Part shown: positions 15,904-53,969 of the stretch, piece after piece
Position numbering within the stretch: position 1 is the stretch's first letter
Layout of the letters: every line of letters begins with the position of its first letter
Assembly (NCBI GenBank): GCA_963971425.1
Contig: OZ020522.1
Coordinates: forward strand, 1,338,168 to 1,402,167
Length of the DNA stretch: 64,000 nucleotides
Direction: 5' to 3'
From: Bryoerythrophyllum caledonicum
Taxonomy: Eukaryota > Streptophyta > Bryopsida > Pottiales > Pottiaceae
Translations under genes and position numbers: made by a program
Notes under the pieces: model-generated
The model's database searches: none
The model's input: only the letters and a program-made list of their open reading frames with translations
What the model was told of the DNA's origin: nothing

Positions 15904-15933
15904 TTGCATCCTCTCGCGCATGGAGCGCCAACA

Positions 15934-22500: not shown

Positions 22501-22696
22501 CAAACCTTCAAGAACTCAACGACTTTGCCCTCCAGGTACTCTTCTCATTTACTAAGAAATCAGTTCCACTTACCATTCAACTATTTCGTACTGATCTAAT
22601 GTTCTGTAGTCATTATGCAATTTGTTTGCATACCGTTTTCTTCAACCCCAATGTCGGTAGTGGGAAGGAAATACTCCTTTCGTGTATTTCCCCAAG

Positions 22697-22715
22697 CATT
22701 GCCGACATCGGCACT
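22697..22715. repeat. Lone palindrome in the sixth intron
   Basis: TGCCGACATCGGCA lies inside the intron 22536-22880 of the ParB-methyltransferase-like gene. It is the same core as in the 15.9-19.5 kb satellite but without the rest of the unit, so the palindrome can exist on its own. Confidence 0.8.
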
Positions 22716-24173
22716 TGTATTTCATACGCTGTCCGTCGCTCTCGTTCTGTTTTGTTATTATTTTTTTCACTCTACTTTCAATCTGTTCTGTTATTTGTTT
22801 CATCCTTTGCTATCTTCTATTCGGTTTTTGAAATTCGAGCTGATGACTTTTTTATAAATGAAAGCCTCTTCGTTTTTCAGGTTAAGGATGAAACTGGGAC
22901 ACTCTCTCTTTCTGCGAAGTGCCCGCATAGCGGCTTTGATTTGATTATTGGAGATTTGAAGGACGGCATGACGGTTCCCGGGGTCTCCGAGAACTCTGGT
23001 TTCATCCCAGTATGGAATCAGTATGCCGTCGAGGACACGGAGACGCTTTTTGAGTTCGCGGAGCATTTTCTTCAAGCGAAGGGGGCTGTTCTTTTGTTTG
23101 TCCCCGACATTCCCAGCATAAAAGCGGATGTTCTCTCATTCGCGGCCGCTTATAGCTTTCAGCCGATTCGTGAGTGGTGGGGAATTAACGACCTCCCCTT
23201 ATCGTCATTCTTCTCTCCTACTGTCCACGTATGATACGATTCTCTGTTCTGTTTCATTCTTTGATTCCGGTCTTCGATTTCATACTATTTGCCCTCTTAT
23301 CTCATTTTCAGAGCAGACGCTTCAAAGTACAACTCTTCATTCATGAGAAGCTTGGAGCTGACAACTTTCACATTGCCGTAAACGATGACCACACCGAGTT
23401 TGGCATGGGAGTGGGGGATTCAGATGTCGTGTTCAACTTTACTTCAAAAGAATCTCAATCGATGAATGGCTCGGTTCCGTGGAGGGGCCCCCGTGAAAAA
23501 GACGTAGCGTTCATTGAGATGTTCATTGAGGCACTCATGAAACCTGGCTCCATTATCCTCGATGCATTCGCTTCCGTTGGTAATTTCTATTCCTTCTCAT
23601 TGAAGATGCATTATTGGTCGGTAATTTGAACTTCATCTTCCTCTTCGGTCATTGAATCTTGTGTTTCCAATACAGGGAATTCTGTAAGAGCTTGCAAATC
23701 AGCGGGCCGGCATATCGTAGCCCTTGACGACGACATTACAGTCTTTAACGCTAAATTGAAGCCTTTTCTTCAAGGGCATCATCCCGTACGTCATGTTCCC
23801 TCTGTTGCTGATGCTCATCCGCTTATTGAAGTGGACGTCCCGATTCGGAGAGTTGCAAAGAGAACTAGATTGAGTACGTAAGTTTGATAATTCGATGATA
23901 TACAATACTTTAACTCTTCATTCTGTCCATAACTATTCTGTGGTTCACATGCTCAGATTGATTGCGCATTTGTTATCTCCTGAACGAGACTTCAACATGA
24001 CGCCTTGGGATGCGGCAGCTGCTACTACGCAGGCTCTGGCTCAATCTCCATCTTCGACTTCTTCTGTTCCAAATTTTGACTGTCGTGTTCGTCATTTTAT
24101 AGATGATGAAGCCGACGTGGAGATTTGTGGCCTCTCACCTTCCACAAACACTTCCAAGGATTCCTACTTCTGA

Positions 24174-25539
24174 CTACATTTTTTATTACATCTTTGTTCA
24201 GGACTGGAATTGATGTACATCATCTGGTTCTGATTTTATCCAACCACACAGTATACTGACAAGCGCACACAATCAATTTCAGCACCTTCTGTGTGTTTTA
24301 TTTCTCTGCAAATATTTTCAGAACTTCCTTTATTCAACATGTTTATTTTGCACAATTTAGTAAACACTCATATTCGGTTTGTATATTCCTCAATGCTTCA
24401 TATGCAGTTTAGTAGCCTCCAGTTCATGATAATTTCCTTAACATGATACAGTGGCAATCCTTCTGATCATAAAATCTATTACTCATTGGATCTAAGCCCA
24501 TGTCTTCTCAGACTTGGTTCAGGAATGCGCGCGTGAATCCGTTCCCATTATCCATATCCTAAATCGACGACTACTGCGCTACTTCTGACCGTGTTGGTCA
24601 ACGTAGCTCTTACATGTCTAACCAGACTATTTTGATTTTAAGTGCTATACGTTTTTACTCTTCATGATTATTTTTACCAACTATGTTAACAATGATAGTT
24701 TTCACTCTCTATATGATAGTATTGATAGTTGTGCCCTCGGTAAAAATCTTCGTCCAAAGAGAACAGTTATTGCTTTACCAAAAATATTACTGTGGTTACA
24801 CTAAATATCATCTTTAGTGTACTGGGCTCATTTGCATACTGAAGCGCCCCAAAATACTTAAGAGTTCATCCCACTTCACGAGTCTATTTTGTCAAGTGTA
24901 TAAACGTCGGTATATCATTGTAAAACTATGGTATTTCCAAATGTTTAGCAGTTTATCCAGATCACCGTTTCTGACCCCACGGCTATAGAGTATTTATGGT
25001 ACTTTTGTAGTTAAGATGCCCTCTATTTTTTTACCCCTCGCCTTATTATTATAAGGTTTCGTTCATATTGACGTCAATTGCTCGTGCATTCCCACGGCTA
25101 TAGGGCCCTACCTTTTTTTATCTTCACTCTTAACTACTCCCTTTTTTACCCTTTTCTGTGAATTTCTTTCGTCTTTATACTTTTTTCTAAACATTTTTAT
25201 ACATTCTTATTGGCCTCCTTATTAAATGTTTTGTTACTTTTACTTTTGCTCCAGAACGGCACATTTTTCTCTTTTTACGCTCGCAAACCTAGGCTCGCAG
25301 CTCGCAGCTCGCATAATTGGGCACGCAAAATAGCAATCCCCCACTACTCTCAATCCATTTCACACTGTATTTACATATTAAACCATTTCCTTACACGACA
25401 CCGGGCGGTCCCCAAGAAAAATCGGACATTGAGGGGAGGAGCAAAAATTACTGTGGTGAATTTTTTTTTTACAATGTACGAAAAGTTAAAGTGATACGAT
25501 GACATGGACAAACGATTAGTGACGTGGACGACTTGAAAG
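24174..25539. other. AT-rich downstream region
   Basis: No gene is visible. Positions 25280-25328 are the inverted partner of 9876-9922. The 24600-25200 stretch is AT-rich without clear repeats. The downstream untranslated region of the preceding gene presumably occupies the first few hundred bases. Confidence 0.4.
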
Positions 25540-28740: not shown

Positions 28741-29574
28741 GTGGCGAGCGAAGCTAGTTTGTGAGCGGGGAGCGGGGAGCAGGGAGGGGGGAAAATGGGA
28801 GCGGGGAGCCAGAACTAGGAACAATTCTCCTGAATTCTAAAAATATATGTTAATAAAAAAACATGTTAAATAAATTCTAATAATAAATAGATTATAGATG
28901 CCTACATAATTAGAATACGGATGCCTATTACCGTGTTCCTCATGGGACTTATGGCTATGGTTGAATATTGATTTCGAGGATTTGAAGATGTTGCATTTCT
29001 TATGAAATATATGCTGTATTTAACTATTTCTGGACTTTGCAAAGTCCAGAAATAAGGAAGAAAGATTTTAGTCTCGTAAAATAGTCGCACCAAAGAATAT
29101 GAAAGGGATACCCAGTTAATTTATTTTAATCATTCAGTCGGATATCTCCGGATGGTTTCAGTGATACATGACTAATCGAATATAGTGATAAAACAAGCGT
29201 GAAATTTCGTTCGTCGTGATCGACATAATGATAACAACTTTCAAGCTAACACGTTTATAAAACAACCATGTAATATGGTGTACTGTACATTTCTGTGGTA
29301 ATATCGTGTAGAAGATGAGTACAGTGCATTTCAGAGCTTGAAGCATTGACATGCAAGGAATGCCGTTCAGACATCCGGAGATATCCGGTCGAAAGCAAAG
29401 TACTAAAAATATAATTGCTCGGCTGTTCAAAAACGACAATGCTACTCTGGAATGAAGTCTCTTTACAAAAGCGTTTGATACAAGACCAAATGTAGGAAAA
29501 AACAGTGACTGGTCTGAGCAAAATTCGTGGATCTAACAACAAATTCTATCCTTGCACAACCTCTCTGAAGAGCT
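28741..29574. other. AT-rich spacer
   Basis: There are GCGGGGAGC-type short repeats at about 28765-28815 (GAGCGGGGAGCGGGGAGC), then AT-rich sequence. Two CCGGA..TCCGG palindrome variants lie at 29138-29151 and 29375-29388. No gene is supported. Confidence 0.45.
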
Positions 29575-30027
29575 CTAAAGATTCTTCCAGTGAGCCGGTG
29601 CGTACATGTCCGAATCGACATCAGACCCTGTGTCACACCCAATTTGAAATGGGCTGCAGCCGCCATCCGAAGAAGATTCCTCCTCGTCTTCATACCAGGG
29701 GTCGTCCTCCACCTCTTCTTCAACCGAAGCAGCTCTATCAAGGGTCTCTTCCACATCGGAGTCGATCTGCTTCTCGTCCTCCGCATCACAGTCGATGCCG
29801 TAGTCCTCCTCTTGAACAAACTTGCTCTCAGCGTCATCCTCCAATTCGTCTAGAACACGCCGATCGGAACAGATCGCCTTTCTGTACTCGACTTGTAAGA
29901 AAAGCAGTCTTCCCTTCTCCGAACCCTGAGCCTCGCTCACCATCCTTCGTGAAACTCTCCTATCTACCGAATCAGAGACATCCCTCTCCCTCTTTCTACT
30001 TCCGAAAGCCATCTCCTCTCTCTCCAC
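29575..30027 (-). CDS. Small acidic protein of unknown function
   Basis: The likely start is ATG 30014-30012 (MAFGSRKRERDVSDS) or the ATG 15 bases upstream. The protein is about 146-150 residues: a basic N-terminus (SRKRERD, RRVSRR), a short LLFLQVEYRKAICSDRRVL segment, then a long Asp/Glu-rich stretch (EEEVEDDPWYEDEEE) and a tail ending AHWKNL. I know no family for it. A TATAAGAG box on the same strand lies about 80 bases upstream (30104-30097), followed by a purine-rich leader, so it could be expressed. It lies downstream of, and on the same strand as, the DUF7869-like gene and could belong to the same mobile element. Confidence 0.5.
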   Translation of the reverse strand: MEREEMAFGSRKRERDVSDSVDRRVSRRMVSEAQGSEKGRLLFLQVEYRKAICSDRRVLDELEDDAESKFVQEEDYGIDCDAEDEKQIDSDVEETLDRAASVEEEVEDDPWYEDEEESSSDGGCSPFQIGCDTGSDVDSDMYAPAHWKNL

Positions 30028-30096
30028 CGTGGCTATGGCCTAACAAGACTTATGGTTGAAAGACAAAACATATGGATTATTGCAGCCCTGAACCCT

Positions 30097-30104
30097 CTCT
30101 TATA
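30097..30104 (-). promoter_or_regulatory. TATA box of the acidic-protein gene
   Basis: TATAAGAG on the minus strand, about 80-90 bases before the ATG at 30014, is the expected place for a plant core promoter with a short leader. Confidence 0.45.
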
Positions 30105-30978
30105 CAATCCTCCCCACCAACCCACTAACTACACTTCTCGAGCGTAGGTACATTGATTTAAGTCGCCATAACACCGAGACTGATGGACTTAATGGCAGAT
30201 GCCAAATTCATGAACGAACAACATGGTAGGCCACGCGTCAAACGTCCTGTGATAATGAGATGTGAGAAGTACAATCTCCGCTGCCAACCATCAGCATCAC
30301 TTCAATCAAATGAAGGAACTCGGATGACTGATATTAACTGTGTAATTGACCGCCCACTTTCATATTAGCAGTGGCATGTCATAAATCAAAGAAGGAACCA
30401 GCCAGGAGAATGCCAAAAAGGTCTCTGTCATTTTGAAACAAGTTCCATTGATAGAGAAATTGCAGTATCGTAGTCACAGAAGATCTCCGGATATGATTCA
30501 ATAATATTCAGAACACCTAGGGAAGCTCAAAATTGAGAAATGTGGACCCCATTGTTAAGAATGGTAGATGTGAATCTCATATCCGGAGATCTACGGCTAG
30601 ATCTCACCCACTTGAACAAGGCAATACATGAACATTCGTCCGACCACGAAATTTGTCTTCCATACCCAGAGATCTCCGGTAAGCGTCCTATGAGATATGC
30701 GGGTCTGAAAATATTCCGGTGGAATAAACCAGTCAATAATAATTGTGTCACTACTCAATGTATCCTAATAACAGTGAATGGAAGAGCGCAAATCCGGTTC
30801 TCTTCACGAAAAGTGGCGAGAGCTGATAGGAGGGATGTCGAACTCTGGACCAGAAAATAATAGTCTTCACAGCCGGAGATCTCCGGTGCTCCTCCGTGAG
30901 GTCGAAGAGACTCGACAAGATTTTTCAGGAACAGAATTTCACAGAACAGAATTCTAGGTATTGGGACTGATCACCGGA

Positions 30979-33900
30979 TCAAGGGTCAGCGGCATTCGCT
31001 TTCTCTAAGTTCACAAGCGCTGCTTCCTTCATTTCACGTGGAATGGATCTCGTCAGTTGGTTAACTTTGCTAGACCAAGTCGCAAACAAAACAGAACTCA
31101 CATGACACCATACAGGCTTCTCTTGGTCCGGAACCCAAGTGGCTTCCCAACAGTCCTGGTACTTCCGCTTCAGATTCTTCTGCTTGTTATCAGGCTTCCA
31201 ATACTTAACGAGGAATTTTCCGTGGTTGACATTACCCTCATCCCTGACGACGTCCGAAACTGCTCTACCCTACCAGACAGGATAGATGTCTAGATCACTA
31301 GGTCTAACTAAAATCCAGGACCCGAGACGAATATCACGCCAAGGATTAAATGTGGACTTTAGGGCTTCATTGGTGGGTCCACAATAAGGCTCGAGAACCT
31401 CATCTTCGGGAGTGACATCCAATGGTTGTGGAAGCGATCCTAGCGGATTTTCACCTCCCTCATGAGGGCCTCTCCAATCATGGGCTGGCCAGAATCCCTC
31501 TTCGAGCTCGGAGGGCGTCTGTGGAAGTGGCTTGTCAAGCTCGTGGATGACGTCCCTCCAGTACTGCAGGTATGGGCGGATGGAGTCTGCGTAACCTGCG
31601 CACTTTGACATTCCAGACGCCCAGTAGTCCACGTACTTCCGAAGCCCCGTCTTAATGAAGTTTTTGTTCTCCGTCGCTTTTCTGGCCTTGTCTCTGGCAA
31701 CATCTTGGTTTCCAACCGGGTTCTGCTCCTCAATACCCCATATGGGCTTGAAAGGGATGGGCTTCGGAGAGCCTGTTGGAAGCATGGGACGTCCGCTGTC
31801 ATCTACCTTCCAGAGTTTTATCAGCTCTCTGTTCATCGGCAACCACTCTGCGTCAACGGCAAACTTCTTGAACTTCATGACCGGAACACCATCATTGTCA
31901 ACGTAGAACTTGAAAAGATGCATATCACTAAGTCCCACGAGACGTGCCGCCCCACTGCATAAAAAGCCATCGACGTAAGATTTAAAGTCGGCCACCTCTT
32001 GGATAACTTCCGGCATGAAGGCTAGTTTCTGTGACTTCATGAATGCCTTCATCAAATCCGCTAGAATATATGTACTGCTTTTCTTCAGTTCTTTCTATAG
32101 ATGACTAAAGTAAACATCAATATCTTCATGCGTATGTCCGACAACCAAGAAGCCAACCTGTATCTCCTTGAAAACACCTCGAGCAGTTAGCAGTGATAAG
32201 AATGCCATCAAGTACTGGTTCTTGTTATCCTTCGCTGAGTTGTCGAGCTGTAGAAACAATTTCGGTGGCAACGGTTTCGGTCCCTTAAAAGCACTGGGCT
32301 CCACGGGCTCTAAAGCGTCGACACACCTGCTCTTTCCCCTCATGAGCGCCGCGAACATCGAGTTTGGAGGAGGGTGCTCGAAGAGCGCGCGCGTCTCATG
32401 TAATGGTGCTCCCTCAAGCCGCCTAAAAAGTTTTGCCAGAGAGGATATGGTGGCGTTCGAATCTCCCGGCCATAAAGTAGGAGCATAGTGAGCATACGCT
32501 CCGTCGACATGACCGTGAGCCACCATTCCGGTGACATTCATGGGAAGCTGTCCGAGACCAGATGTCGCCTTAGTAGTCCTCCACATGCGTGGAAGGGCCG
32601 TCTTCGCAGTGTCCATCTTGTCGTGAATGACACAGAGAAAGGTCAGCGGCTTCGCCTTCGACTCCTCCCTCCATGTCGCGTAAAGCTTCCGGCATGATTG
32701 TTGGTGATTCAAGTGAGCTTGCCTGTTGCTATAGAAGAGCTCGTATGCGGGCGTACCCTTAGGAGTTGTCAGTAAGAACTGATTGAACTCATCGCAAGTA
32801 CTGCATTTTGCGAAGGTGCTTCCAGACGGCTTAATAGCAACATTCCCGAAGAATTCCTTCCTTACCCTACTAACTGTGGACTGACTTACTGGAGGGAGAC
32901 CGTAGGAGTCGTTTGTCTGCAAAATGAAAAATTAACCTAGTGAGAGGAAAAATTTAGAAGTACAATCCAACAGACGGTGCGAAGTACAGAGTAAATCAAT
33001 TGAAGGTCAATGCAGAACAACGATGACCCAGCCGGAGATCTCCGGTTAAGATACTTAGACATCGGTCGACGGAGCAAGGAGAGTACAAATCCATTGCAAT
33101 ATGCGGGGACTGATAACGTACATCATTGACGCTGGCTCGAATTTGCTTCCAGTTGTTTCCCGCAGGAAGATACTTGAGAGTGTCAATCCGACCATTCCCG
33201 ACACTCCGCATTTGGTGAGGCATTTGATCCGCGTTGTCATTAATAATCGACGTCATTGAGCCCATCGCCTGTATAGTGGCAAGCCGTGGGCGCTTGATGC
33301 CCTTGTTACCGTGAGTTGCATTAATGATTCCTCTACTGAAATGTGCGATGTACGTGTGAAACGTGGACTTCCGAATTCCATGGATCGTGTACCATGCAAC
33401 GGAGCAAACCTCCGTTCCCAAGAGCGTGACGTACTTTTTCTTCCGGTCCCCATCAATGGAGTGGAACTGCCCACCTACCGAGATCGCATACTCCTTTCTA
33501 TCTTCAAAGGATTTGTCATAGAATTTCTGTCTAACAGAAAGAGTCTGGGATTGTTGAAAATACTGGCAGCATTGTTTGGGACAGCACCTATCCGAGCTGA
33601 CTTTGCGAATTTCGTCGTCGGTAGTCCTCTTGGTGTACAAGGATTCCTTCTTGTTAAAGTCCTGCTGTCGGGAAATGAAGCGGTAAGGCTCGTTCGCACG
33701 ACCCCCCAAATGAGCGCCAGAATCTGGTTGTAAGGGCAGGGATGCGAAATGATCAATTGTGCATTTCAAAGAACGACCGGAAGGAAAACAACATTCAAGA
33801 ATGGGCCACGATTCATGACTCATAATTCTCTCCGTGTCTTCCACAAAAACATCAAGGACAGTTACACCAATATTTTCTTCTCCCAAACATCCACTTCGGA

Positions 33901-34506
33901 AATGGTCTGCTGGGAAAGCGGCCATGATTCTCCCAGAGCAGAGCACCAACCCATCTCCGTCCAACCGCTGCACTTCAAGTCCAACGGAGATGGGTTGGTG
34001 CTCTGCTCTGGGAGAATCATGGCCCTCGTGGTACGAATGGGGACTCAACCATCTCAACCCAATGAGAGTGGTACGAATGGGGACTCGTCGGACCGGAGAT
34101 CTCCGGTTGGAATCATGACATCCGCCCTTCTCCATAAAACGGTCCACCGGAGTGTGTGAATAAGTGAATCGTATCCGCGTTGCAAGGGAATGAGTGGTAA
34201 TTCTTCCGCCGCGGGGCATATGGCCGTTGGTCTAAGTAATACGAACTCACTAGATCCGACTGGTATGTCAATTCCAAGCCATTGACCCATGGGGTGAACC
34301 TCAACAATGGACGCTTCTCCAATTTCGCCTGAACCTGGCCTCATAAGGTTCACGGACATTCCTGACCAGAGGACCTCCGATCTTCCTGTAGACTCCTGGG
34401 ATGGATCATCTTCTTCCGTGAAATTCACATGTCCAGAATCAGAGCACTGAGTTGCGACCATGGCAAGGTCTTCCGAGTCACTCTCCCACCTATCTGAGTC
34501 AGACAT
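30979..34506 (-). pseudogene. DUF7869-like transposase-type gene with two in-frame stops
   Basis: Coding text runs from MSDSDRWESDSEDLAM (34506) through an acidic N-terminus. It continues (about 33995-33110) with a Cys-rich part (RCCPKQCCQYF) and a conserved block (VCSVAWYTIHGIRKSTFH, ATHGNKGIKRPR, NADQMPHQMRS). An intron of about 185 bases ends at the acceptor before 32919. The catalytic-type domain reads CSTCDEF, then LQLDNSAKDNKNQYLMAFLS and VGFLVVGHTHEDIDVYFSHL. The D..N and GHTHEDID motifs are those I associate with DUF7869, an RNase H-fold, transposase-like domain. TAG codons at 32095-32097 and 31270-31272 interrupt an otherwise continuous frame that ends at TGA 30979-30981, rich in Trp and Lys. 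The first exon boundary is uncertain because an inverted duplication lies at 33920-34024. Family assignment is from memory of motifs. Confidence 0.55.
33920..34024. repeat. Perfect inverted repeat, 41-bp arms, 23-bp loop
   Basis: Positions 33920-33960 and 33984-34024 are exact reverse complements; the loop is 33961-33983. The left arm on the minus strand codes for DGDGLVLCSGRIMAA of the DUF7869-like gene, and the right arm is an inverted copy of it. Just outside, a 19-base word around GGTACGAATGGGGACTC is directly repeated (34028 and 34068). Confidence 0.97.
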
Positions 34507-34830
34507 AGTCCCGTGCTGCATCGGTGGAATCTCGGTTGGTGGCTGATGTCCTGAATGAGAAATTGTGTGTATGTAGAGTCGATTTGGATGACCAACCTCA
34601 ATATCCTCGTCAGGGATAGCCGGAGATCTCCGGCAGAGTGGATAATGATCGACAACGACGACTTCTTGTTTGATTTTGAGAGAGAACAAAACAGAAGTAG
34701 CCGGAGATCTCCGGGAATCCTGCTTTCGATGATTCTGACAGCCACTGGAATCAAGGGGTGAAACCGTGGTTACCGGGCGAGATTGGCAGAATCCAGAATA
34801 GCACGGCATGAACAGCCGAAGATCTCCGGT

Positions 34831-35893
34831 TGAGTTTTTTGGCCTTGATCGAATCAACAGCCGTACGGAATATTCGCGGGTATGGCGGTGTGATACAGTT
34901 GCATAACCCGGTTAACAGTTCGGATTCACACGCCAAGAAATTACGTCATCTATATACTCGAGTCGAATATATTTACTGCTTCAGGGCTATGATTGTATCT
35001 TCGGAGACGAATTAGTTTAAAAATCTCTACTCGAGAGCTCCCGATCGACTCAGAGGACAGAATGCAACACAATCATCACCAATCCTCACAGACAGACAGC
35101 GAATACGGAATTATACGAGGGAACATACTTAACATTCCTGGAATAATGTCGATTCGTTTCCCTACAATTATCTAGCACGATGTCGCGCAAACGAACACTG
35201 TCACTGACTCGCTCAGCTCCCATAGTATCTCAAACATCCTGAGCAAAAAAGGAGGAGAGCTGAGTTGAAGGATACTCTTATCCACCTTTCCATCACCTCG
35301 TGGAGGGAAAATTCAGGCGCTCAAATTTGAAACGAATCTTGGGCATGCATGCTCCTTCAAACTAACTGCTGTACACCATCATGATTGTGCGCATTCTTCG
35401 ACGTGCCCACGACCGAGGCCACATTCCACTCATGATAATGAAAGGCTCGTACTCATGGGATGACCGTATTGTAAGGATACCATCTAGTTCCTAGAGTGCT
35501 GCAAATTTGAAAACGGATGATGAAGTATGCCCCATGATGTATCTTTGAATATACTAGGGCCGTATCACGTCTTAGACTAAATCACAGTAAAATGTAATCG
35601 TACAGGACTTCTCGTACTCACCTTTGTTAAGTAAATTATACCCTACCCAAGGAAAGGAGACGGCCCTCAGCTGCCTACTAGTATTGTTCATCAGGCAATA
35701 CAAGACTCAAGTAGAACATCGGCGTTCGTTACCAATTAGAATAATCTCCAATACTGCCTAGTTCGACAGAAGTTATATGGATGCTTGAGAAGAAACGTGC
35801 ACAAATAACTGAGCAGATGCTTTTAGAAGTACAGCAACCCGGTCCTATGAATTCGGGTACAGCTTCCGTGTTCAGGCTGGATTGTGCATCAGG
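34831..35893. other. Spacer without a recognised gene
   Basis: There are no long frames with recognisable content and no palindromes of the local family after 34830. Sequence composition is balanced. It separates the DUF7869-like gene from the telomere-like array. Confidence 0.4.
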
Positions 35894-36075
35894 GTTTTAG
35901 GGTTTAGGGTTTAGGGTTTAGGGTTTAGGGTTTAATGTGTCCGGTTTAGGGTTTAGGGTTTAGGGTTTAGGGTTTAGGTTTTAGGGTTCATGGTTTTCAC
36001 GGTGTAGGGTTTAGGGTTCACGGTTTCTAGTTCACGGTTTTAGGGTTTAGGGTTAAGGATTCAGGGTTCACGGTT
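35894..36075 (+). repeat. Interstitial plant telomere repeats (TTTAGGG)n
   Basis: Two short runs of perfect TTTAGGG units (about five each, 35896-35932 and 35943-35985) are followed by degenerate GGGTTCACGGTTTAGGG variants to 36075. This is the plant-type telomere unit, here well inside a sequence, so it is an interstitial array. Confidence 0.95.
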
Positions 36076-36711
36076 CACCGTGGAGGGGTCTGAGTTCATG
36101 AAGGTTGAGGGCTTATATCACCTATAAATGTATAAATTAAAAATATTTTATAACTATGAACTATAACCTTAAGTTTATCCATAACCATAACTTTTTAAAA
36201 AAACCTGGATACTATAGAGTGTAAGGAAATTTAGCGAGAATTGAACAATAACTATTTATTTTGATACATTATAATTTAGTTAGAGAGAGAATAAAGAAGA
36301 GAAGGAGGGTAATGGATTTAATTTTAGAGTAGACTAGCTGTTGGCGCTTGCTTTGCAATGCATTAGCCCAACCATTTTTATGTATTTATAATATTAAAAA
36401 GTATTAAAAAGTAAAAGGTGGAATGGTTCACTATATTGTTGACAACGCGGTTGATTGTAGCGTTTTTGTAGTTCACTGCATGGTTGACTACGTGATAGTT
36501 CACTCCGTGGTTTACTGCGCAAATTATGATTTTAGTAGTATGACTAGGAGTTGGCTCTTGGTTTGCAACACATTAAATCAACCATTTTCATGTAGTTTTT
36601 ATATCACAAAGTATTTAAGAAAAAAGGTAACAACAATCTACATAAAATATGAATATATCTTTGAAACCTATGCATTAATTTGAATAATGTAATAGAATGG
36701 GATAGAAAAAA
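36076..36711. other. AT-rich spacer with short purine-rich repeats
   Basis: AT-rich sequence. The GTTCACT(A/G)CGTGGTT-type words recur four times between 36424 and 36520, giving a small degenerate repeat. No gene is supported. Confidence 0.45.
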
Positions 36712-37557
36712 AAATACTATTACAATAGTTCAATATTATTAACTATGGATGGAGATTGAGATAAAATAGGGAGAGTAAAACTAAAATAAATAAATAAACA
36801 AGTATGAGGGAGAGTTAGGGAGGGAGGGAGAGACTTGAGGGATTTATTTTTAGAGTAGTGTATATTTTTAGAATATGTAATAAGGGGAATCTAAAAAGAA
36901 AATCAAATGTAAAAAAGAGATGGGGAGGGAGAGTAAGGGCGAGGAAGAGTAAAATAGGGAGAGTAAGGGATTCTTTTAGAGTAGTAAGTTAATTATAGAA
37001 TGTGTAAGTATTGAAATCACGAGGAGTCTAAAAAATATTAGAATCAAGATTAAAAAAGAGATGGAGATGGAGAAGGAGGGGAGAGTAAAACAAAAATAAG
37101 AAAAACAAGTGAGGGAAAGAATAGGATAGTTAAAAAATACTATTACAATAGTTCAATATTATTAACTAAGGATGGAGATTGAGAAGGAGGGGAGAGTAAA
37201 ACTAAAATAAATAAATAAACATGTAGGAGGGAGAGTAAGGGAGGGAGAGTAAGAGAGAGAGAGACTTGAGGGATTTACTTTTAGAGTGGTTTATATTTTT
37301 AGAATATGTAATAAGGAGAATCTAAAAATAAAATCAAATGTAAAAAAGAGATGGGGAGGGAGAGTAAGAGAGAGGAAGAGTAAGAGGGGGAGAGTAAGGG
37401 ATTTTTTTAGAGTAGTAAGTTAATTTAAGAATGTGTAATTATTGAAATCACGGGGAGTCTAAAAAATATTAGAATCAAGATTAAAAAAGAGATGCAGATG
37501 GAGAAGGAGGGGAGAGTAGAACAAAAATATGAAAAACAAGTGAGGGAAAGAAGGGAG
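36712..37557. repeat. 423-bp tandem duplication
   Basis: Copy 1 (36712-37134) and copy 2 (37135-37557) match closely: TATTACAATAGTTCAATATT at 36718 and 37141, AGAGATGGGGAGGGAGAGTA at about 36917 and 37348, and the run TCACG(A/G)GGAGTCTAAAAAAT. Both are A/G-rich on the plus strand (GGGAGAGTAAAA words). Confidence 0.9.
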
Positions 37558-38636
37558 GGAGAGTAACGGAAAGGGAGATTCAGCTTTTCCACTAATGTCG
37601 TTTTAAATTCAAGTATAATTATTACTCTAATACCCGGTGAACCCGAGTATCTATTATAGTCATATCTAATACCCATGAAACCGGGTATCAATACGTCTTC
37701 TCACGCATGCTCACGACATTGACAATGTCATGATTGTGAAATGGACACGTTGTACATGTACGTCATTTCAGCTGATTTTTAACTTCACCCACTGTCATCA
37801 TGAGCCGTCACACCCTTGAGCCGTCCAGCTTGTCCTCTTTGGGTTTTGGGAACTCCAAGAATGAACCATTTCTTGATTTTTTTGGCTTTTGTCTTCGTAA
37901 TGTCGAAGGTAGTGAGCGGAAGTGGCGGGAGAGGTTTTCTTTCTTGGTTTGCGGAGTCGGCGTCGACGCATTAGGTTAGTTTTGTATGCGCTGTGAGAGG
38001 CCGTTGGTGTGCGAGGTGAGTGTTGATTTATATGAGGGACATTGAGCGTGCCGTGGAGAGGTTGTTAACTGGATATGGACTGAAGGTCAGAGAGTAGGAC
38101 TGAAAGAGAGCGAATGCGTTAGGAAGAAATTTGAAGAGCGCCTAGGTTCAGTAGCCAAGAGTGAACGACGTTGCGGTTGAGGGTGGCGTCAACACGAACG
38201 ACCACGACGTACGGGTGCGCCGATTCGGCAAGTGAAGAGGTATGTAAAGTCTCAAAAATGGCTTTCAGTGAAATTTCAGTTGAATTTGCATAGGACTTCA
38301 TAGAATCGTCACTGGAGCAGGTGTAGGGTTCGGTAAGCTTCATTAGGGTTCGAGAGAGTTGAATAGTACTGATGTTGATAATCGTTTGAGCGAAATAGAA
38401 GGGTTTAGGGTTTAGGGTTCTAGTTTTCTGTGCATTCAGTTTCGAAGGGCCGGAATTGAGCAATTTATGCAGTGTTGAAATTTGTTCCACCGAATTCCTG
38501 TATGTCAGAACTGGACCATACATTCTAGGGCATTTGAGAGATTGTATAGTTTGTCGTTCTGAGTTGTTGAATGCTTATGTACTGCAGAGTTGTGTATACG
38601 CTTTAATCCAGAGCAATTACTGGAGGAGATTGCGAA
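37558..38636. other. Upstream region of the ParB-HAD gene
   Basis: This contains a purine-rich start and an inverted pair around ATACCC / GGGTAT at 37630-37690. A likely 5' untranslated region precedes the ATG at 38637, including GTTTAGGGTTTAGGG at 38401. Open frames are short. No separate gene is supported. Confidence 0.45.
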
Positions 38637-41600
38637 ATGGCGACTACAGCAGGGACGTGGAATGAGAGTGCGTGGGATGGAAATCGGTAAGTATACACAA
38701 TTGAACTGTTTATGCTCAGTCCGGGCGACCAGGTGGGGTTCCTTTTTTTGAGTGAGTTCCGAATTAGTTCTATTATTTCGGAGTGGACGAACACTTGAAT
38801 GATTTTGAAAAACCTCAAAAAATGCGTACTAGAATTCCGATGTCTGTTTGGCTATAGTCGATTGGTTTTTTGTTGTCCCGTGAACATATTTGTATATCTA
38901 TTCATGAATATGCGAATGATTTTGGAATTCCATGAATGTTTGAATGTGTTGTTCCTCACTGAGTCTGTCGAGTCTGGTTCGATTCAATATATATAGTTTA
39001 ATCCATGTAGAGTCGTCAAATTTGGCGTTCCATCGAAACATTAGCGGATTCTTCTTCTAGTGTGTAAGGTCGAGTTATAACAGAATTGTGTGAGCTCATT
39101 TGATACATATATTTATGTTCTCAATTATGTAACTTGGTATTTAAGTATGTCAAACTTCAAGAGTTATACGTCAAACCTCTCTGTAAATGAATGTAAATAT
39201 TCGAGTCCTGATATGATCCGATTAGTGCTTCGAAGTGCCGTACGTGCTTCTGCCGGAGATCTCCGGCTGAAAATACGGAGTTCCAGTAATCAGCCGGAGA
39301 TCTCCGGATGATGTAGCAATCAGATGAATATGTTAACCCTATACAGGAGTTAGTTATTCTCGAAAGTAGCCGGAGATCTCTGGACGTATCGAAACAGTGG
39401 AAATTCGCGTTGAGGGGTCATTAACCGGAGATCTCCGGTTCAGGTCAGAAATAGACCCGTTAGAGCAGCCAGGATTCGTTCCTTGTCGGATGCACTCGAC
39501 TTCCCCAAAGCAGCCGGAGATCTCCGGTTACTGTCCCCTGCTGGCACTCTGATACAGATTTGGAAGCACGATTCACGGTTTCAATATCTAGGAACTTGTC
39601 AGGTGATTTTGTTTCGGATTCTTGTTATTGACCAGACAATTGCATCGATTCTAAACTGCCTGCTTGTTCTTTCAAAATCATCTTGCAGGGATTCGTGGAC
39701 AACCACACTTCCGACTGAATGTCGACCCGGGAAACTTGGGGCATTTGTAGAGTATTGGCTCCCTGAGTTTGTCTACAGAGGGATACACAATGTCGGCTAC
39801 GTATACAATTGCCGAAAGAGCATAACCCAGTGGGGCATCAAGCTCATTAAAACCCCTGACGGTGCCTGGGAATTCGTCCCTCAGCTTCGGATTGGCAAAC
39901 GGGGTCACCCCGACATTGGTCTCCAGGTTCTCGAGTTGCAGGGACTTGATGACGAGGTCAGTCTCGTCATCGTCCAAGAGAACGTGGACTCCTCCACCGA
40001 GCCACATATATACGGCTTGATCCTAGAATCATCTAAGATTTCGGATGAGATGGTAGAGACCTGCCAGAGTGAGAACTTTTTATTTGCCCCTCCAACGGGT
40101 GATACGTGGTATCCGGAGTACGTGAATGAGCAGTGGAAGTGGATGGCTGAAGCACAAGAGAAGTCCCGAATGCCCGTTCCAGACGCAACTCCCAATCTGT
40201 CTCTGACACCAGCATCGACCTTGGCAAGAAAACGCAAGACCACCTTGAAGACTTCGACCCCAGGATCTTCATCGCGGGCGGAGAAGGGGAAGAAAGCGAA
40301 GGCCGATGAGCCAGGCCTCGCGATTGAAAGGTGCCTGAACTTCACACAGGCTGACCTCACAAAAATGAAGCGGACTGAAGTGGAAGCAATTGGCAAGGTA
40401 CTCGACGACGCGTTCAAAAACGTTTACATACACAATAATAAGCCTTTGACAGTAGAAGACCCTGACACGAAGAAGGATGTCGTGAAGCTCGTTCATTTCG
40501 ATAAGCTGCACCGGGCCCCCCCTGGAGGATTAGTATACAGGGGCATCCAGAAAGAACGGCTTGAAGGAATTATCAACGCAGTTCGCGCGTCTTCGAAGGC
40601 CACGGCACCTGAGATTCACATTCGAGTCCTGCCACTGAAGAAGAAACCTGAAGGAAGTAAGGTAGAGTTTTTCGCGACCAAGCCGACGAAGGAGGACTGC
40701 CTGAGGGACTCAACACACTTTTACATTATCGGAGGTCAGCATACTGTGGCGGCGCACAAGGTTCTGTCACACGAATTGCCAGCAATGTGGACGCTTGAAG
40801 AGATCTCCCACTTCTCTATCATCCCGGTTTGGACAAAACCGGACCCCAAAGACATGACCCTGCTACAGCTCTCGCGCGCTCTTAACCAAGATCTGACGGG
40901 TTTGCGGAAGGAGCAGAGTTTCACTGAGCAGCTGCAGACGTGCAGAGTGAAGTGGTTTGAGTTCGGTAAACCAGCCCCCCAACTGTATGGTCGTCGTCAA
41001 TCTGACGCATTCTCGGTAAATATACATTCTCTACCTGAAAATATTTTTTATTCCGTGGCTGTGCTCTATCCACACAGCAACCAAACCAATCATCCGGAGA
41101 TCTCCGGCTGCTTACACCCTGTAACTGTTTTCATTGCAGACGTTCCAACGGCAAGTGGTGCCAACGGTTTTTACACACCTCGGTAAAACAGACCCCAAAG
41201 ACGCGAAGGTCCCACTTCTATTCGAGATGGATGATGCGGTGGTCCAGAAGTGGATCCGAGTCGACAGGCTGTTCGTCGCTGGAGACTTACCAGACTCCAA
41301 CGGGAAGACGGGGGACCCAGCTAAGCTGAAGCGGAAACCTCTGGTGCAGAACGACTTCAAGCCTCTTTACAAAATGCGCGCCGAAGACCTAGACTACCTC
41401 GCGGAATTAGTGCTCGAGAAGAAGGTCTGTGTGAAGTCCTCCAAAGCGGCAAACCAAGGTACTATGAAAGGGCAGGCGGAGACTCTCGAAAACGCGGCGA
41501 ACAGAGAGAAGAGAGTCCGTGCAATGAAGAATGAACTGATGCTTAAATACAAGTCGCACCCCCTTCCCTCGAAGGCTGCTGACTTCGTCCCATACACAAA

Positions 41601-44600
41601 GGAGCAGTGGGACGCATTTGCCGAAGAGAGGAATATTGGAAGGGTCCAGCTCGAGTCCTGGGTCGACGCCGCTAATCACTCTGCCAAGGGTAAAGCTTGG
41701 CTTGAGGGTCGACTGAAGGCGATAAACAAGGATACCGACCCCACTCCAGACTTCCTCGTGTCCATTTGGAGTCAACACATCATTGAAGATGCTGCCGAGG
41801 CCACACCCACGGATGATACGTCCCTGTTCGACTCCAAATACACCTGCAGGGTTATGCCTGACAGAGGGGGCGAGATCGCCGAAGTACTTATCATGCCGGA
41901 CATTCAGCAGTGGCGTAACGTCACTGACCCTCACTTTTACTTCTTTTTCCTTTACAGCGTTAAAGACGACATATGCCGTGCACAGGTGCTAAATGTGTTT
42001 GACTTCAGAACCATTTTCGACCATCTCGAAGTGGACACGAAGGACGGGCGGACGAGGGTCGGATCACCGTCGGTTCTTATCACTGACGTCGCAGGATTCG
42101 TTGAATTAAAGAGGTACATCAGTCTTCGGCAGAGAGAGTCCAGAGGCAAGGTAAAATTGTGGGCAACGCATGTCGTCTACTACTTCCCCCACCCTGGTGA
42201 TGGATTTCCGGTTCCAGTAATTGGGGTCGAGGAGACAGTATACTGCGTATTCCTGTATGAATACGATTCAAGCGAGACACCTGCTCAGTCATTCAAGAGG
42301 CTCTTCAAAGGCCACCCCGAAAGAATGCCGGCCTTCTTTTCAGCCGCTCAACATAAAGAAACCATCCAGCGCTGGAAGCAAACCGGTGTCCCACAGCTGA
42401 GGATCTCGGTCCTGGATTCGTTGTTCACGGGATACATCAGAGAGGGTATGGTGGTCGTCAATGTTCATGGAGGACCACATATTACATACCTCGGCTTGGT
42501 AAGCAAGACATCCTTCCCAAGCAATCCAATGTCTAAGATTTCCGGTCCGCATATAGTTATATGAATTGGATATCGCCGTCCTAATTTTTTTTTGGTTTGC
42601 AGACTCACGACGCGCGGGTCCTCGAGATTGTGAACAGCGAAGATGCCAAAGTAAATGCCGAATCCTGCGCAGAACAAATATTCAAATTCCACTTGAATAT
42701 CTTAGCTGACGTTACCGACGCCGATCTTGAGGAGTTACTGGAGACTGACATCACTGGGTCGACCCAGGGCGCTGGTATTCAAACACGGGCTATGTCGAGG
42801 ATGAATTACACCGGCGAGGTATAACGCCTACGGATACTACCCGACCCGGAGATCTCCGGATGTTTATTCCATTCGGATGCCCTCCATTCTTTTGGACTCG
42901 TCTTTATCATTGCCATGTTTATTTTTAGTTCCCCCGGTAGACTCGGACAACTTTGAACCGGAGATCTCCGGGTGTATGATACCGTTTTATTTCGTATTGC
43001 GTCTTAATGTATTCCACACTGACTTCGTCAATGTGACGCAGACGACTGATGCCACGATGCTTGATGTTGATGTGCGGAATGAACCAAGTTCATCAGCGGT
43101 TCCCAATTTAAGACTGGATTCCTTGGCTACAGCCGCTCGGATCATCGGTGTGGGCACCCCAATCGATCCATTGCAGGTAAACGTTGATGAACCACATCCT
43201 GCTGTCAGGCGTGCCTCGCCTAGTTCAACAAGCGACTCTACTCTGGACGGCGTAGACGGCGTCCCTCTCAAATGGAAACCAGTTCGCATTCCGATAGGCA
43301 ACGTTCTCCTCCGCCAGATCTGGACGATGACACGGCAATGTCCGATCGCCTGGAGTTCGACCACACCCACAGAGCACCCGGAGATCTCCCGCTGGACAAC
43401 CCTTCCACGACTCGTCCTGAAGTGGAGGTTGTGTCCAAGACTGCCGAGGACCTGACTTTGCGTGACACTGATCACACGATGGATGAGGCATCGGCGCAAC
43501 AAACATTGCGTGAATTACAGGTTATGAGCCCTCCGCGCAGCCCTCTACGGAGCCACGGGCAGCTAGCTCAGAAAGAGAAGAAGAAGGCTATCGCGAAGAA
43601 TCCTGTGCCGAAAGTTCCTCCTCCTCCGCCTACAGTTCGGACAAGGGCCCAGAAAGATAAGGTGAACAGTTACTTGTCCATCAAACCTTCTTGATTGTTC
43701 TCAAGACAGTGCACTCTCTGCAGACCGTGTTCTTACCACTACATTACTCGTATTCAGGTGTCGGCTGGATCAACACAGTCAAAGGATGTCGGTGGCAGAA
43801 GCCTCGCACAGACTACTGAAGTCGCTGGTGTAGCTCAGACTTCTAGGGATACTACACCTACTGTCCCAGGTGCCTAATATGGACATTCATACTTACGTGC
43901 CATCATCTATATAGTGCTCATTCTTTCATCCAGCATTTATGGGTTCTGAGTGCGGAACACTTTTATATGTATCTTTGCAATTTCTCTAAGCTGTACAAGT
44001 TCCTCATCTCAGCCGACGTACTCGTATTTTGGGTTCAGGTCTGAAGAAGTTTACGACGATCGTCCGAGAGCCTCCAATCGAGGATCAGGTAACACAACAA
44101 CGGGTTTATCATGTCGTGTTTGACTTAAATGGAGTTCTTGTGCACAGGGGGAATTTAAACAGAGACAACCGAGAGACATCAAAGTAAGGCCGGGTTCCAC
44201 TGAAATCCTGAACTTCGTGGGAGAGAAGGCTACTGTCTCATTCTGGAGCAGTGTACTGGAAAAGAATATTGTGGATATCATCAAGGAGTTGCGCAAGAAA
44301 GGTGCTACCATTCCGGAAGGCGCCAGAATCCTGACACAGGCCGATTGCACAAAAACATCATATATGCTTCCATCTCACCTAAAGAAGCCAATTTTCCTAA
44401 AGGACCTGACAGTTTATAATAGCAAAGCGTCGCCCACATCTCCTAAGGATGTCTTGCTTGTGGACGATACCCCACTAAAGAACATCCTTAAGGATCCCTT
44501 CAGCGCAGTTCATCCGCCATCATGGACTGGGAATATGGGTGAAGCCTGGTTGACCACCATGTTTCTCCCATGGCTCTCCGGACTACTAGCGTCAAATGAG

Positions 44601-44711
44601 GATGTTCCCGACTTTGTTAGACGGAATCAATTGAAGTTTGCCAGTGATCCAGTAGACAAAAATACCACTCAGGCTCGCTTCGTGGTGATGGGCATAATTT
44701 CGGCGCCTTAG
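38637..44711 (+). CDS. ParB-like / FCP1-type HAD phosphatase fusion gene
   Basis: Exons 38637-38686, 39689-41015, 41140-42498, 42603-42818 and 43042-43176 join in phase. Later pieces are about 43233-43661, 43758-43869, 44039-44088 and 44148-44711. Exon 2 holds a unique region (FVEYWLPEFVYRG...), a Lys-rich linker, and a ParB-like segment with IIGGQHTVAAHKVL, the GGxHT..A turn used by ParB/Srx domains. Exon 3 is helical and unassigned. A Pro/Lys-rich linker leads to an FCP1/SCP-type phosphatase domain: FDLNGVLV (HAD motif I), RPGSTEILNFV, VSFWSSVLEKN, LLVDDTPLKN (acidic motif) and HPPSW. Such enzymes remove phosphate from Ser/Thr. Motif I lies in a 59-nt segment (44089-44147) with GT-AG ends; keeping it shifts the frame to a stop, removing it keeps the frame without motif I. 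The 43177-43232 junction is uncertain. Palindromes CCGGAGATCTCCGG sit in introns. Confidence 0.65.
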
Positions 44712-45980
44712 AACAATGAAATATACTGGATAGTATTAACTCTATGCTTTGTAAATGTTTCGTCATGAATGTCTGTCGGATTTTGACCTTTCAATTTTGA
44801 AGACAAATGTTCTTGTCAGAAACGTTATTTGTTGAGGTCCTTCATTTTATTTGTTCTTGTTGGTGTCTCGCCCCCAAACTTCACCCTTAATATCTATGAA
44901 CTCTATTGAGTATTCTCCTGACCATTTCCACTGCAGAACGTTGGTCTGGGAGGGGCACCCGGAGATCTCCGGTCCAGGATGTGACTTCAGTTCCTCCTAC
45001 CATATTTTCTCGTCTTTTCAATGTTCAATTTCTAATTCTATGGTCGTGCCATCTATTTCACAGGTCATAATCATATCTCTCCGTGGTCCTCTCTGCTCGG
45101 ACAAGGTCCTTGACTCGGCCAAGTCCCGATCCGCGCAGCTGCCTTCCTTTGATGACACCGCAGATGTTATTCGAATACTACTGCGGTATTTCAATGTCGG
45201 GATCTGGTCTCCTATGCGTCCAGATAGGCTCATGGAGGCGGCCCAAGTGTTATTGCCCCCAGACATCTTATCAGATATTCTTTTTTGCTATGCCAGCAAA
45301 CAGACTCGAAGGCCCAGCTATGTTAGGTTTTTCCACATCTTTAAGAAGGCCTCATTTAATCCTAGAACAAGGCATTATTTGTGGCCTAAATCTGTTGTTG
45401 TTGCAGATCTAGATCCATTCAAGAATCCTAGAAAGGCTATAGTTCATTATCTAACATATGGGAGACACCATACAGGACGGGTAGAGGGCATCTGTAAAGC
45501 ACTAAAATTAGAATAGTTGATTCGATTCTCCGTAGATTACACACGCCTCTTATCAACGGCTACCCTTCATATTTTGTATGACACTTTCTTATAATGAAAC
45601 AGTTTAGTACTGGACTCTTACTCTGATTTCATCCGGAGATATCCGGTTGCATGTTCTATCAATTGCGAGTAATTTCTGTCCGCATCTCTGTCCCATTTTT
45701 TCCTACCACATGTTTCCCAACCACACATTTGTGATGTAGAGTATGTCCATTAATTTCTGTCTTCAGGACTCGGTTCTTCTTCTGGTTTCCACTTTGATTT
45801 TCACCCGGAGATATCCGGCTGCATGTTCCGGACTCACGTATTGTCTAAATTCAGATTTGGTCGCTCTAGCCATTTCTTCCTTCATAAGTGTCATTGGTGA
45901 TGCATTTAATGCTTGAAAAGTACTCGAAACTCCTCGGCTTTTACGCTTCACTCTCATTTATGAGGCACATCTCCGGATCT
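39253..45980. repeat. CCGGAGATCTCCGG palindromes, right cluster
   Basis: Exact copies lie at 39253, 39294, 39425, 39514, 41094, 42846, 42958 and 44959. Variants lie at 39370 (one change), 43378 (one end changed, inside an exon), 45634 and 45805 (centre GATATC). A half copy lies near 45966. Four copies plus one variant fill the long first intron of the ParB-HAD gene, one the second intron, two the fourth; 44959 lies between the gene and the FCP1-like segment. The pair at 45634/45805 shares flanking sequence (GCATGTTC), so those two arose by a short local duplication. Confidence 0.97.
45062..45516 (+). pseudogene. Second FCP1-like segment with altered catalytic motifs
   Basis: After an acceptor-like TTTCACAG, an open frame of 151 codons to a stop at 45514-45516 aligns with the preceding phosphatase domain. 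VIIISLRGPLC stands where VVFDLNGVLV is expected, VIRILLRYFNVGIWSPMRPD matches EILNFV..VSFWSSVLEKN, and VVVADLDPFKNPRKA matches VLLVDDTPLKN. Both nucleophile-motif residues of HAD motif I and one Asp of the acidic pair are changed, so phosphatase activity is unlikely. It could be a decayed tandem copy, a separate pseudophosphatase gene, or alternative terminal exons of the gene before it. No start codon is required if spliced. Homology is inferred from order and spacing of motifs. Confidence 0.5.
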
Positions 45981-46276
45981 TTCTTTTAGTCCTTAGTCCA
46001 GAATTCACCTCATAGTCCAGAAATAGTTGAATTGGGCATATATCCAGAAGTTCAACAAATTGGGGGGTTGAAACACATGATTTGCGACCATATTTCAAGA
46101 CTCAACCAATGGATTTAGAAAAAAAGAAACTTTTTTTTGGGAAAAATTACACATATAAGATTCCAAAAACTTGGTAGTGGCCCTTTTCGTCTCACTCCAT
46201 ATTCAAATATAAATGACCATCGTCATACAGAATTCCAAACCTGAAGTATAGAAAACTCTAAAAACTCCAATGAAGA
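45517..46276. other. Spacer to MULE-B
   Basis: This holds the last three palindrome variants and then the 3' flank of MULE-B, including TAGTGGCCCTTTTCGTCTCAC at about 46174, which resembles the 3' flank of MULE-A at 10731. No gene. Confidence 0.5.
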
Positions 46277-50124: not shown

Positions 50125-52235
50125 GGAGCATGAGCTACTGTCACACTAGAGGAAGAAAAAGCCTTCTCTCAGTATCACTTCCAAGGATTAAATTCTTACA
50201 CATAACAGATAGATTATTGAAACTAGCAAATGTTGATTCAGTCTATTTTTTTTGAAAGGAGATGTATGTTGGACACCAATTTATCCACCCTAATCTTGTA
50301 GAACAGCCACTGGTATACCAGATTGGATTGGAATTGGATGAATGGTAATTAAATGTGGTTCTCATCATGAGTGCATTTATTATACATTTGATATATAAGG
50401 ATTGCAAGACAAATTCGCGGCAATAACTAAATAAACCAGGAATCCGAAGTAACGTAGGTCGAGTAGGGTAACTTGAAATAGATGTAAACCAAGTAGGCGG
50501 ACAACATAGCAAGCCTGTTAAAGCTCAAATTTATGTTAGTGAAGTAATAGTACAAGAATGCACTATAAAATGATGGCTCCAGAGTGGTAGGCATTTCAAA
50601 TTGTCAAGTGGTAGAGTATTTTGCGACATATTGATCTGGATACAGCCTTTACACGCCAGGAGAACTGTGGACATGATTAAATGAATATGGTCACTTTAAA
50701 GGGGGAGCAAACATCTGCTGCCAATGGATACAAATGAGCTATCGATCAGTTGTGGAATACAAACTGTCCGTAACATTATGATGAGTGTGGAGATTGAAGG
50801 TTTTGTCTTAGTAGATGTATGAATTTTGTGCTTAGATCTTGATTAGAATTTCGTGCAAATGCTTGATGGGCAATTCAAAACGCCTTTAGGAAGGGGCACT
50901 AGAGGGAGGCGGAGGACAGGGTTTAGATTCTCCAGTAGGAAATCCATTACAAGAAACCGATTGCAGAAAGAGTTAAAACAAAAGGAATGTAGCGGTGTAG
51001 GAGCCAGTTCAAAGGAGAGTAGCCCGGGTAGAGTGTGTCGACTGAAGGAGGATAGGACATCAGATATCGACATTTCACGTCTCTTGTCTACTGTAAAGGA
51101 GTTGAGGTTCGAATCTAGTGGCTCGGAGCAGGAGGGCCGGGGATTTCCGCATAGCGCATTGGAAGTGGTAAGTGTTAGCTATCAATAATAAAATCAGTAA
51201 TCCTTTTTGAAATTTGATAAAAATTATAGAGATCAATCTATACAAATTTAGCGACTCAAATGCTATACTGGTGATCCAATATAAGATTTTGGTAGTCAGT
51301 GTGCAAACATACATACTGTAATTCAATGAGGCCAATAAATAGGATATGTTGCCGACCACAGACTTTCCAAGCCAGAATACGTAGGGTCCAGAGTAATGTA
51401 TGGCCGTATTGCAGTTAGAAATACAAATCGTCGGTTACTAGGCATGAAACCCTAGCACTAACAAACTGAGCAACACTTTCTGTTCTTGGCGGTCCGTGGT
51501 GCGTGCGGCTGGAGGAGTCGGATGTTGTTGTATTTTCTCTCCTTACCCTTCTGTGTCCTTGATCAATATCAAAACTAACAAATAGCTGCAACTGATGTAG
51601 GACACCTCGGAGCCGAAGGAGGTCGCAGTCAGGTCGTGTGCGTTGTCGGGACGACTGTGGAGAACCGCCGCTGCTAGGGTATGTTCACCGAATCCTAAAA
51701 TCACTCGTTTCAGTCTGCTCCTCTGTCAGCGAAGTCGGAGTTTTGGAGATGGCCACTTCAGTATTCGATTATACTTAAGTGAAACCCTGATTTTGTTGTG
51801 AAACCGTGATTTGGCCCGTTGGGTAAAGTAATGCTGAAGTTGTGAGTGCGTTTAGTATTCATGAGTGCGTTTAGTTGTGAGTGCGTTTAGTATTCATGAG
51901 TGCGTTTAGTAGTTTGCGGCTTGAGCTCAGTTTAATCACTTTGATATACATTTGTGACTATGCTGAGGTTGAGAAGTATCCAACTTGGTGCCTCGTGAAT
52001 TGGATGCACTCAGTTTGTTGACTAGGGTATCATCCTCATTGCGAAGGCATTAATCTGAAATTGTGAGGTTCCTTTCATTGAATCTGAAGTTCGCATGCGT
52101 GGTCTTCATGCCGTCGGTACCGACGTAGTAGAGACCTGGATTTGGAAGCGTGGTTCGTTTGCTGAAAGGGTCTTCGGGAGTCTCGTGGACGGAGGCTGAA
52201 GTATGAGACCCCATCGTCATCTTTGTTTACGTTGT
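50125..52235. other. Intergenic region
   Basis: This is the flank of MULE-B followed by sequence without recognisable genes. A 111-codon plus-strand frame at 50853-51188 is basic and Ser/Gly-rich, with no family resemblance. The words GTGAGTGCGTTTAGTATTCATGAGTGCGTTTAG form a small tandem repeat at 51840-51915. Confidence 0.4.
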
Positions 52236-53428: not shown

Positions 53429-53587
53429 TATTCATATTCAGTAATGAGTCTAACATGATTTAGAGTTGCGTTCCAGAATTTACAATGTTTGAACTATTGT
53501 TCAGGTGTTAAATTCGCAATTACGCCAGAGTCTTTAAATCGATTACTAACTCTTTGACTTCATATGTTCCATTTCCGTCTTCAGATC

Positions 53588-53839: not shown

Positions 53840-53969
53840 ATGCTTCCAAAGTAACCGCTCCGGTTTCGTTCCCACAGAGACCTGCTGTTTCTTCTAGAAT
53901 CACTAAATAATCCACTTACACTAAGCACCAATCCACCAGAACCTCATTCTCACTTGTTCTACAACTATT

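Follow-up and report, generated by a model that had tools for sequence, protein, structure and literature searches.

In a 64,000-nucleotide stretch of contig OZ020522.1 of Bryoerythrophyllum caledonicum (hereafter the window, with positions counted from its first letter), the 14-bp palindrome CCGGAGATCTCCGG is repeated 23 times within E1, an apparent mobile element of about 17 kb in which two divergent genes, one transposase-like and one ParB-like, lie between inverted-repeat arms. Within the window the palindrome is confined to E1, where it sits almost entirely in non-coding DNA, and private palindromes with other words recur in two neighbouring elements, E2 and E3, and in a contig from elsewhere, L121. 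We consider it fairly probable that a dimeric protein encoded by E1, the ParB-like one being the likeliest, docks on these sites as private 20-bp dyads and serves in anti-silencing or coating. All results on E1 come from one copy of the element, and confinement was judged within the 64-kb window.

Distribution of the palindrome

Thirteen exact copies of CCGGAGATCTCCGG were found between 30873 and 44972, against 0.00 expected from 100 dinucleotide shuffles of the window. When up to 3 mismatches were allowed, the window held 27 sites for 2.31 expected, the largest shuffle giving 8. These counts rule out a chance origin of the repeats and bear out the sequence-only reading of this DNA, which had reported about 23 copies, 13 of them exact, at a density beyond chance. 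Twenty-three of the 27 sites lie within 29138–45818, all with at most 2 mismatches, and the four others (1894, 6036 and 51137 with 3 mismatches each, and 55499 with 2) are about the number that chance would give; none of them is exact, in agreement with the near absence from the rest of the window claimed earlier. The same reading had carried the series on to 45980, which is too far: position 45963 holds only a half-site with 4 mismatches, and the last full copy ends at 45818. A search of viral contigs with CCGGAGATCTCCGG returned at least 120 stretches, with a single site in each of the 80 listed, which we take as chance.

Only one of the 23 copies (43378) falls in coding intervals, though these make up 8,315 of 17,037 bp (49%) in an approximate gene model (binomial P = 5e-6), and the avoidance of exons noted in the earlier reading is thus confirmed. 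All eight copies within 38637–43165, the ParB-like gene, are located in GT-AG introns. Intron 1 contains five of them (39253–39266, 39294–39307, 39425–39438 and 39514–39527, exact, and 39370–39383, 1 mismatch), intron 2 one (41094–41107, exact) and intron 4 two (42846–42859 and 42958–42971, both exact). The sole copy in a likely exon is at 43378–43391 (1 mismatch), and a further exact copy is at 44959–44972. On the side of the transposase-like gene, copies occur at 30477–30490 (2 mismatches), 30583–30596 and 30666–30679 (1 mismatch each), 30873–30886 (exact), 33032–33045 (exact, in a presumed intron deduced from reading frames), 34093–34106 (exact), 34620–34633 (exact, upstream of the presumed start of that gene), 34701–34714 (exact) and 34816–34829 (1 mismatch). 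The four outermost copies, two at each end, are at 29138–29151 (2 mismatches), 29375–29388, 45633–45646 and 45805–45818 (1 mismatch each).

Anatomy of the sites

The sites were chosen by the 14-mer alone, and their flanks were examined afterwards. Two bases outward of the palindrome, a T stands in 36 of the 46 flanks (P = 8e-13); three bases outward, none of the 46 has one (P = 5e-7). In both tests the two flanks of one site were counted as independent. The first base outward is free, and almost no conservation is seen past the third. Since these preferences are symmetric, the E1 site can be written as a 20-bp dyad, YAN-CCGGAGATCTCCGG-NTR. Beyond it the copies are unrelated on average: the 40-base flanks share a mean identity of 0.25, the highest pair reaching 0.625, which rejects duplication of a longer unit. 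Direct repeats of at least 3 bases flank 1 of the 23 sites for a control mean of 0.66, so that a tiny-insertion origin is also rejected. Outside the full sites, E1 shows no excess of half-sites.

The four outermost copies form a class of their own. All four have a GATATC core, which is present in none of the 19 others, an arrangement with a chance of 1/8855 in a test made after the pattern had been seen. The earlier statement that most differences between copies are symmetric or central holds for these four of the ten inexact copies, whereas the remaining six vary at scattered positions. Among the three origins which that reading had left side by side (binding sites, products of a tiny inserted element, scars of a targeted process), binding sites fit best, given the dyad, the unrelated flanks, the lack of a half-site excess and the existence of other palindrome families. 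Insertion and scars are disfavoured by direct repeats at control level, by the lack of a long shared flank and by the lack of any exact copy outside E1.

Element E1 and its genes

Just beyond the outermost palindromes, a left terminal inverted repeat (TIR) of 33 nt (29007–29039, plus strand) is 85% complementary to a right one at 46011–46043 (minus strand). The alignment of the two arms scored 41, where the two highest scores among 273 random region pairs were 80 (other repeats) and 31. No target-site duplication of at least 7 exact bases was found near the repeats; the best candidate, a 9-mer with a single mismatch, sits at ends that show no pairing. As no duplication was found and the exact ends are not fixed, E1 is at most a putative clean transposon copy. 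The sequence-only reading had correctly placed the copies around two genes; calling these genes unrelated was misleading, as a single inverted repeat encloses the two of them. As a result that would count against it, the reading had named the membership of all copies in one known transposon family. All 23 are indeed in one element, which locates the sites and does not explain them away.

The transposase-like gene occupies approximately 31000–34521 on the minus strand, as delimited by a match to Pfam PF25273 (DUF7869) and by open reading frames. The DUF7869 core lies in 32098–32931 (E = 1.3e-33), and a weak continuation in 31273–32094 falls below the cut-off (E = 7.6e-4). Between the two, an in-frame TAG at 32095–32097 splits the frame. 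Five of six fetched DUF7869 homologs read past this point, and the closest one (P0001) loses its frame just before it. Because of this stop, past which most homologs read on, the E1 copy is probably dead. We presume that DUF7869 is a transposase from its conserved acidic residues, which is our own reading and not a curated statement; the literature searched yielded no paper on this domain. Within the gene region, two perfectly matching inverted arms of 41 nt enclose a loop of 23 nt (33920–34024), which may reflect local rearrangement or an error of assembly.

The ParB-like gene (38637–43165, plus strand) was modelled with exons at 38637–38686, 39689–41015, 41140–42498, 42603–42818 and 43042 onward, giving 3,076 nt of open frame and four introns, all of them GT-AG. 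Approximately residues 250–411 of the exon-2 model form a ParB/Srx-like region, the conserved core of which is shared by 7 homologs. The structural neighbours of a weak model suggest that the protein resembles ParB/sulfiredoxin folds. No Pfam helix-turn-helix was detected in exons 2–3, and the structural model is poor in the stretch that follows the ParB-like part. Downstream, an exon similar to NIF (FCP1-type) phosphatases (44124–44711, plus strand; PF03031, E = 2e-9) may belong to the ParB-like gene or to a separate gene. For two homologs, one of each E1 gene (P0011 and P0123), the longest contig is given as 68,570 bp in both cases, which suggests that the gene pair travels together elsewhere.

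E1 also contains interstitial repeats of TTTAGGG, the plant-type telomere repeat, at 35891–36068 and around 38405. Near them is an AT-rich 431-bp tandem duplication (36694–37552), which is devoid of palindromes and possibly a nested insertion.

Other elements and relatives

A scan for further repeated palindromes in the window revealed two other families, GCTGCCGAYRTCGGCAGC and AGCGTCGGTGCCGACGCT, each beside or in a two-gene block with the divergent layout of E1. The first belongs to E2 (9861–25341), a second two-gene element with a 56-nt TIR at 9868–9923/25279–25334 that scored 92, in regions larger than those of the random-pair control. A 10-bp candidate target duplication, CACTACTCTC, stands just outside 9861 and 25341 (chance about 6e-4 over the offsets tried), and the 7 bases that separate it from the TIR match at 3 of 7 only. 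Within 15941–19505, 14 copies of GCTGCCGAYRTCGGCAGC have no more than 2 mismatches, a count that omits weaker core matches (up to 3 mismatches) in E2 and an exact 14-bp core at 22700. A tandem array of 127 bp holds ten of the 14, and four lie outside it. Duplication is plainly operating in E2. The array also falls in an open frame, and we do not claim it as non-coding.

In E3, AGCGTCGGTGCCGACGCT has 8 copies within 52110–53429 with at most 4 mismatches to a pattern with a free centre, five of them with at most 2 to the full word; this count omits 4-mismatch matches at 16348 and 37953 and some 5-mismatch ones outside that interval. At up to 3 mismatches the full word gives 6 sites, all in the same interval, where none is expected. 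The flanks are unrelated (mean identity 0.28, highest 0.45). The ends of E3 were not found, its best inverted-repeat score of 28 being below the second-best control.

The minus-strand proteins of E2 and E3 share 37–72% identity in pieces of at least 61 residues, and 83% over 29 residues. Since Pfam gave no family above cut-off for either, the term transposase is presumed for them. On the plus strand, E3 has a ParB/Srx-like exon (55704–56141), assigned tentatively by its structural neighbours and with 263 homologs, and the corresponding exon of E2, at about 20028–20465, is 37% identical to it (E = 1e-28) and interrupted by a stop near 20232. A profile-profile comparison of the E1 and E3 ParB-like regions was not significant, with a short local match GGQH/GNH (P = 0.11). 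The E3 exon retains a G-N-H-R motif.

The C-terminal part of the E2 gene (23189–23880) resembles N6_N4 DNA methylases below the Pfam cut-off (E = 0.0029), and that of E3 (58890–59340) does so by eye; neither shows an obvious catalytic DPPY motif. A TTCCGGA-rich stretch at 53800–55700 appears to be an insertion within the E3 ParB-like gene, and an inverted relative of it lies at 6461–7290, where two pieces are 75.6% and 95.9% identical to it. Elsewhere in the window we observed a ParB-like gene fragment at 152–480, beside it a 25-bp tandem repeat at 511–965 (18 copies, 98% matches), and a retrotransposon RNase H, which like the TTTAGGG repeats of E1 is consistent with a plant or green-algal source.

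Outside the window, L121, a contig of 4,327 bp, was the sole relative among the matches listed when genome contigs were searched with the DUF7869 alignment. It is filed under an uncultured cyanobacterium, likely through contamination by eukaryotic DNA. Copies of a 27-bp palindrome, CAGTTTAGCTCGA-S-TCGAGCTAAACTG, unlike the word of E1, flank the 963-aa DUF7869 frame of L121. With up to 8 mismatches this palindrome has 5 sites for a control mean of 0 (30 first-order random sequences), and with up to 11 mismatches 12 sites for a control mean of 0.77. All of them lie outside the frame. Among the 12, those at 31 and 42 overlap each other, and L121 itself was the source of the consensus.

No relative was confirmed in viral contigs by the transposase core, the transposase alignment or the ParB-like alignments of E1 or E3, and tblastn gave no match for the E1 ParB-like exon in phages or for the E3 exon in plasmids. 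A sequence search of the PDB with both ParB-like alignments and the transposase alignment yielded no ParB-type match at E up to 10, and Rfam none above gathering scores. These alignments comprised 16 of 120 listed transposase homologs (239 found), 51 of 120 listed E3 ParB-like homologs (263 found) and all 7 E1 ParB-like homologs.

Candidate readers of the sites

We infer binding, a binding protein and its purpose as follows. The 14-mer would be the core of a recognition site of two-fold symmetry, private to E1, on which a dimeric element-encoded protein would dock across introns and intergenic DNA, and this private docking would restrict the action of the protein to DNA of its own family. The likeliest reader would be the product of the ParB/sulfiredoxin-like gene, which we favour because E2 and E3 have palindromes despite another kind of minus-strand protein. 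Its likeliest purpose would be accessibility, by anti-silencing as with VANC in VANDAL transposons, or coating from many loading sites, as with ParB and Noc on parS and NBS. The pairs of copies with a GATATC core at the two ends may form a class of their own, by which the transposase would recognise the ends.

The chief rival, which we judge somewhat unlikely, is that the DUF7869 transposase itself reads the sites, that subterminal sites have spread inward and that the ParB-like gene has another job. It overlaps with our proposal in that the reader would still be encoded by the element. The Spm TnpA protein and the Ac transposase bind repeated subterminal motifs, and the distinct class formed by the four outermost E1 copies is what end recognition predicts. 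L121 favours this rival, since it has a DUF7869 gene and its own palindromes and no ParB-like gene was seen in its 4.3 kb. However, the copies of E1 are found throughout 17 kb and not just near the ends, and they cluster in the introns of the other gene. Moreover, E2 and E3 have palindromes without a Pfam-matched minus-strand protein, and the ParB-like fold is what they may have in common with E1.

It is improbable that E1 captured sites of a host factor, such as a transcription factor or a methylation-sensitive protein, for its own expression. The clustering of sites upstream of and inside genes would suit such a factor, as would the CCGG cytosines that they contain, but no exact copy is present elsewhere in the window, and the other words of the neighbouring elements and of L121 fit element-encoded factors better. 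A micro-MITE (miniature inverted-repeat transposable element) or other palindromic selfish repeat, inserted repeatedly at YANNTR targets, could also leave identical short words in unrelated flanks, and the YAN...NTR pattern could reflect its target preference. We consider this very improbable in view of the control-level direct repeats, the confinement of exact copies to E1, the systematic difference of the end copies and the different words of the other elements. Finally, action at the RNA level, in which self-complementary intronic words pair and alter splicing or form double-stranded RNA, is hardly credible: any copy can pair with any other and 8 lie within the introns of one gene, but further copies are outside or between genes, including near both ends of E1, and pairing needs no unconserved base within a conserved symmetric flank.

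If our proposal is right, it would provide a second, independent example of transposons that identify themselves by repeated words private to them, here with another protein fold, and a ParB-type protein and its palindromic sites would become known from transposons of eukaryotes. No prior report of such a combination appeared in the titles and abstract openings searched, which covered few subscription papers. Co-evolution of word and reader could then be tested across elements that lie side by side in one genome, and CCGGAGATCTCCGG could be used as a tag for locating E1-family copies. As a broader and more doubtful idea, eukaryotic two-gene transposons might carry a ParB/parS-like marking, with loading of a ParB/Srx-fold protein at many private palindromes, spreading, and exclusion of silencing chromatin or pairing of ends, in which word and reader co-evolve fast enough for neighbouring elements to differ completely in their words.

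Comparison with known systems

The En/Spm TnpA protein and the Ac transposase of maize are encoded by the element and bind short, repeated motifs that only their own family carries, in a methylation-sensitive manner in Spm. Their sites lie within a few hundred bp of the ends, whereas those of E1 run through 17 kb.

By function, the nearest precedent would be VANC of the VANDAL transposons, by analogy. VANC proteins carry the domain DUF1985, which Pfam did not detect in 12 scanned pieces of E1 that took in part of its exons. In Arabidopsis, anti-silencing with demonstrated binding is described for VANDAL21 and VANDAL6 (PMC5735166; PMC10398659). These are DNA transposons with short motifs lying mostly in non-coding DNA, and related elements differ in motif, as is the case for E1–E3 (PMC5735166; PMC10398659). 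Judged within the window, E1 likewise has a private motif concentrated in non-coding DNA. VANC motifs are 8–9 bp long, non-palindromic as printed and often in tandem, whereas the sites of E1 and E3 are palindromes of 14–20 bp in unrelated flanks; E2, for its part, has a tandem array.

By fold and form of the site, the nearest system would be ParB and Noc with parS and NBS (PMC7383237). In bacteria, parS (TGTTTCACGTGAAACA) and NBS (TATTTCCCGGGAAATA) are perfect palindromes (PMC7383237), and the NBS sites of Noc are dispersed (PMC4331003). E1 differs from ParB-parS in its eukaryote-like, intron-bearing gene, its transposon setting, an altered arginine motif and the lack of a detected helix-turn-helix; no ParA was seen, no search being aimed at it. 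E1 is like ParB-parS and Noc-NBS in having a putative ParB/Srx-like domain in its own gene and palindromes of similar size, dispersed as those of Noc are.

A ParB-methylase fusion, Bce_0392, is described from Bacillus cereus (PMC5512222). Compared with it, the E2 and E3 genes differ by their introns, by their place in a two-gene element of eukaryote type and by their private palindromes, and they resemble Bce_0392 in joining a ParB-like exon to an N6_N4 methylase-like part.

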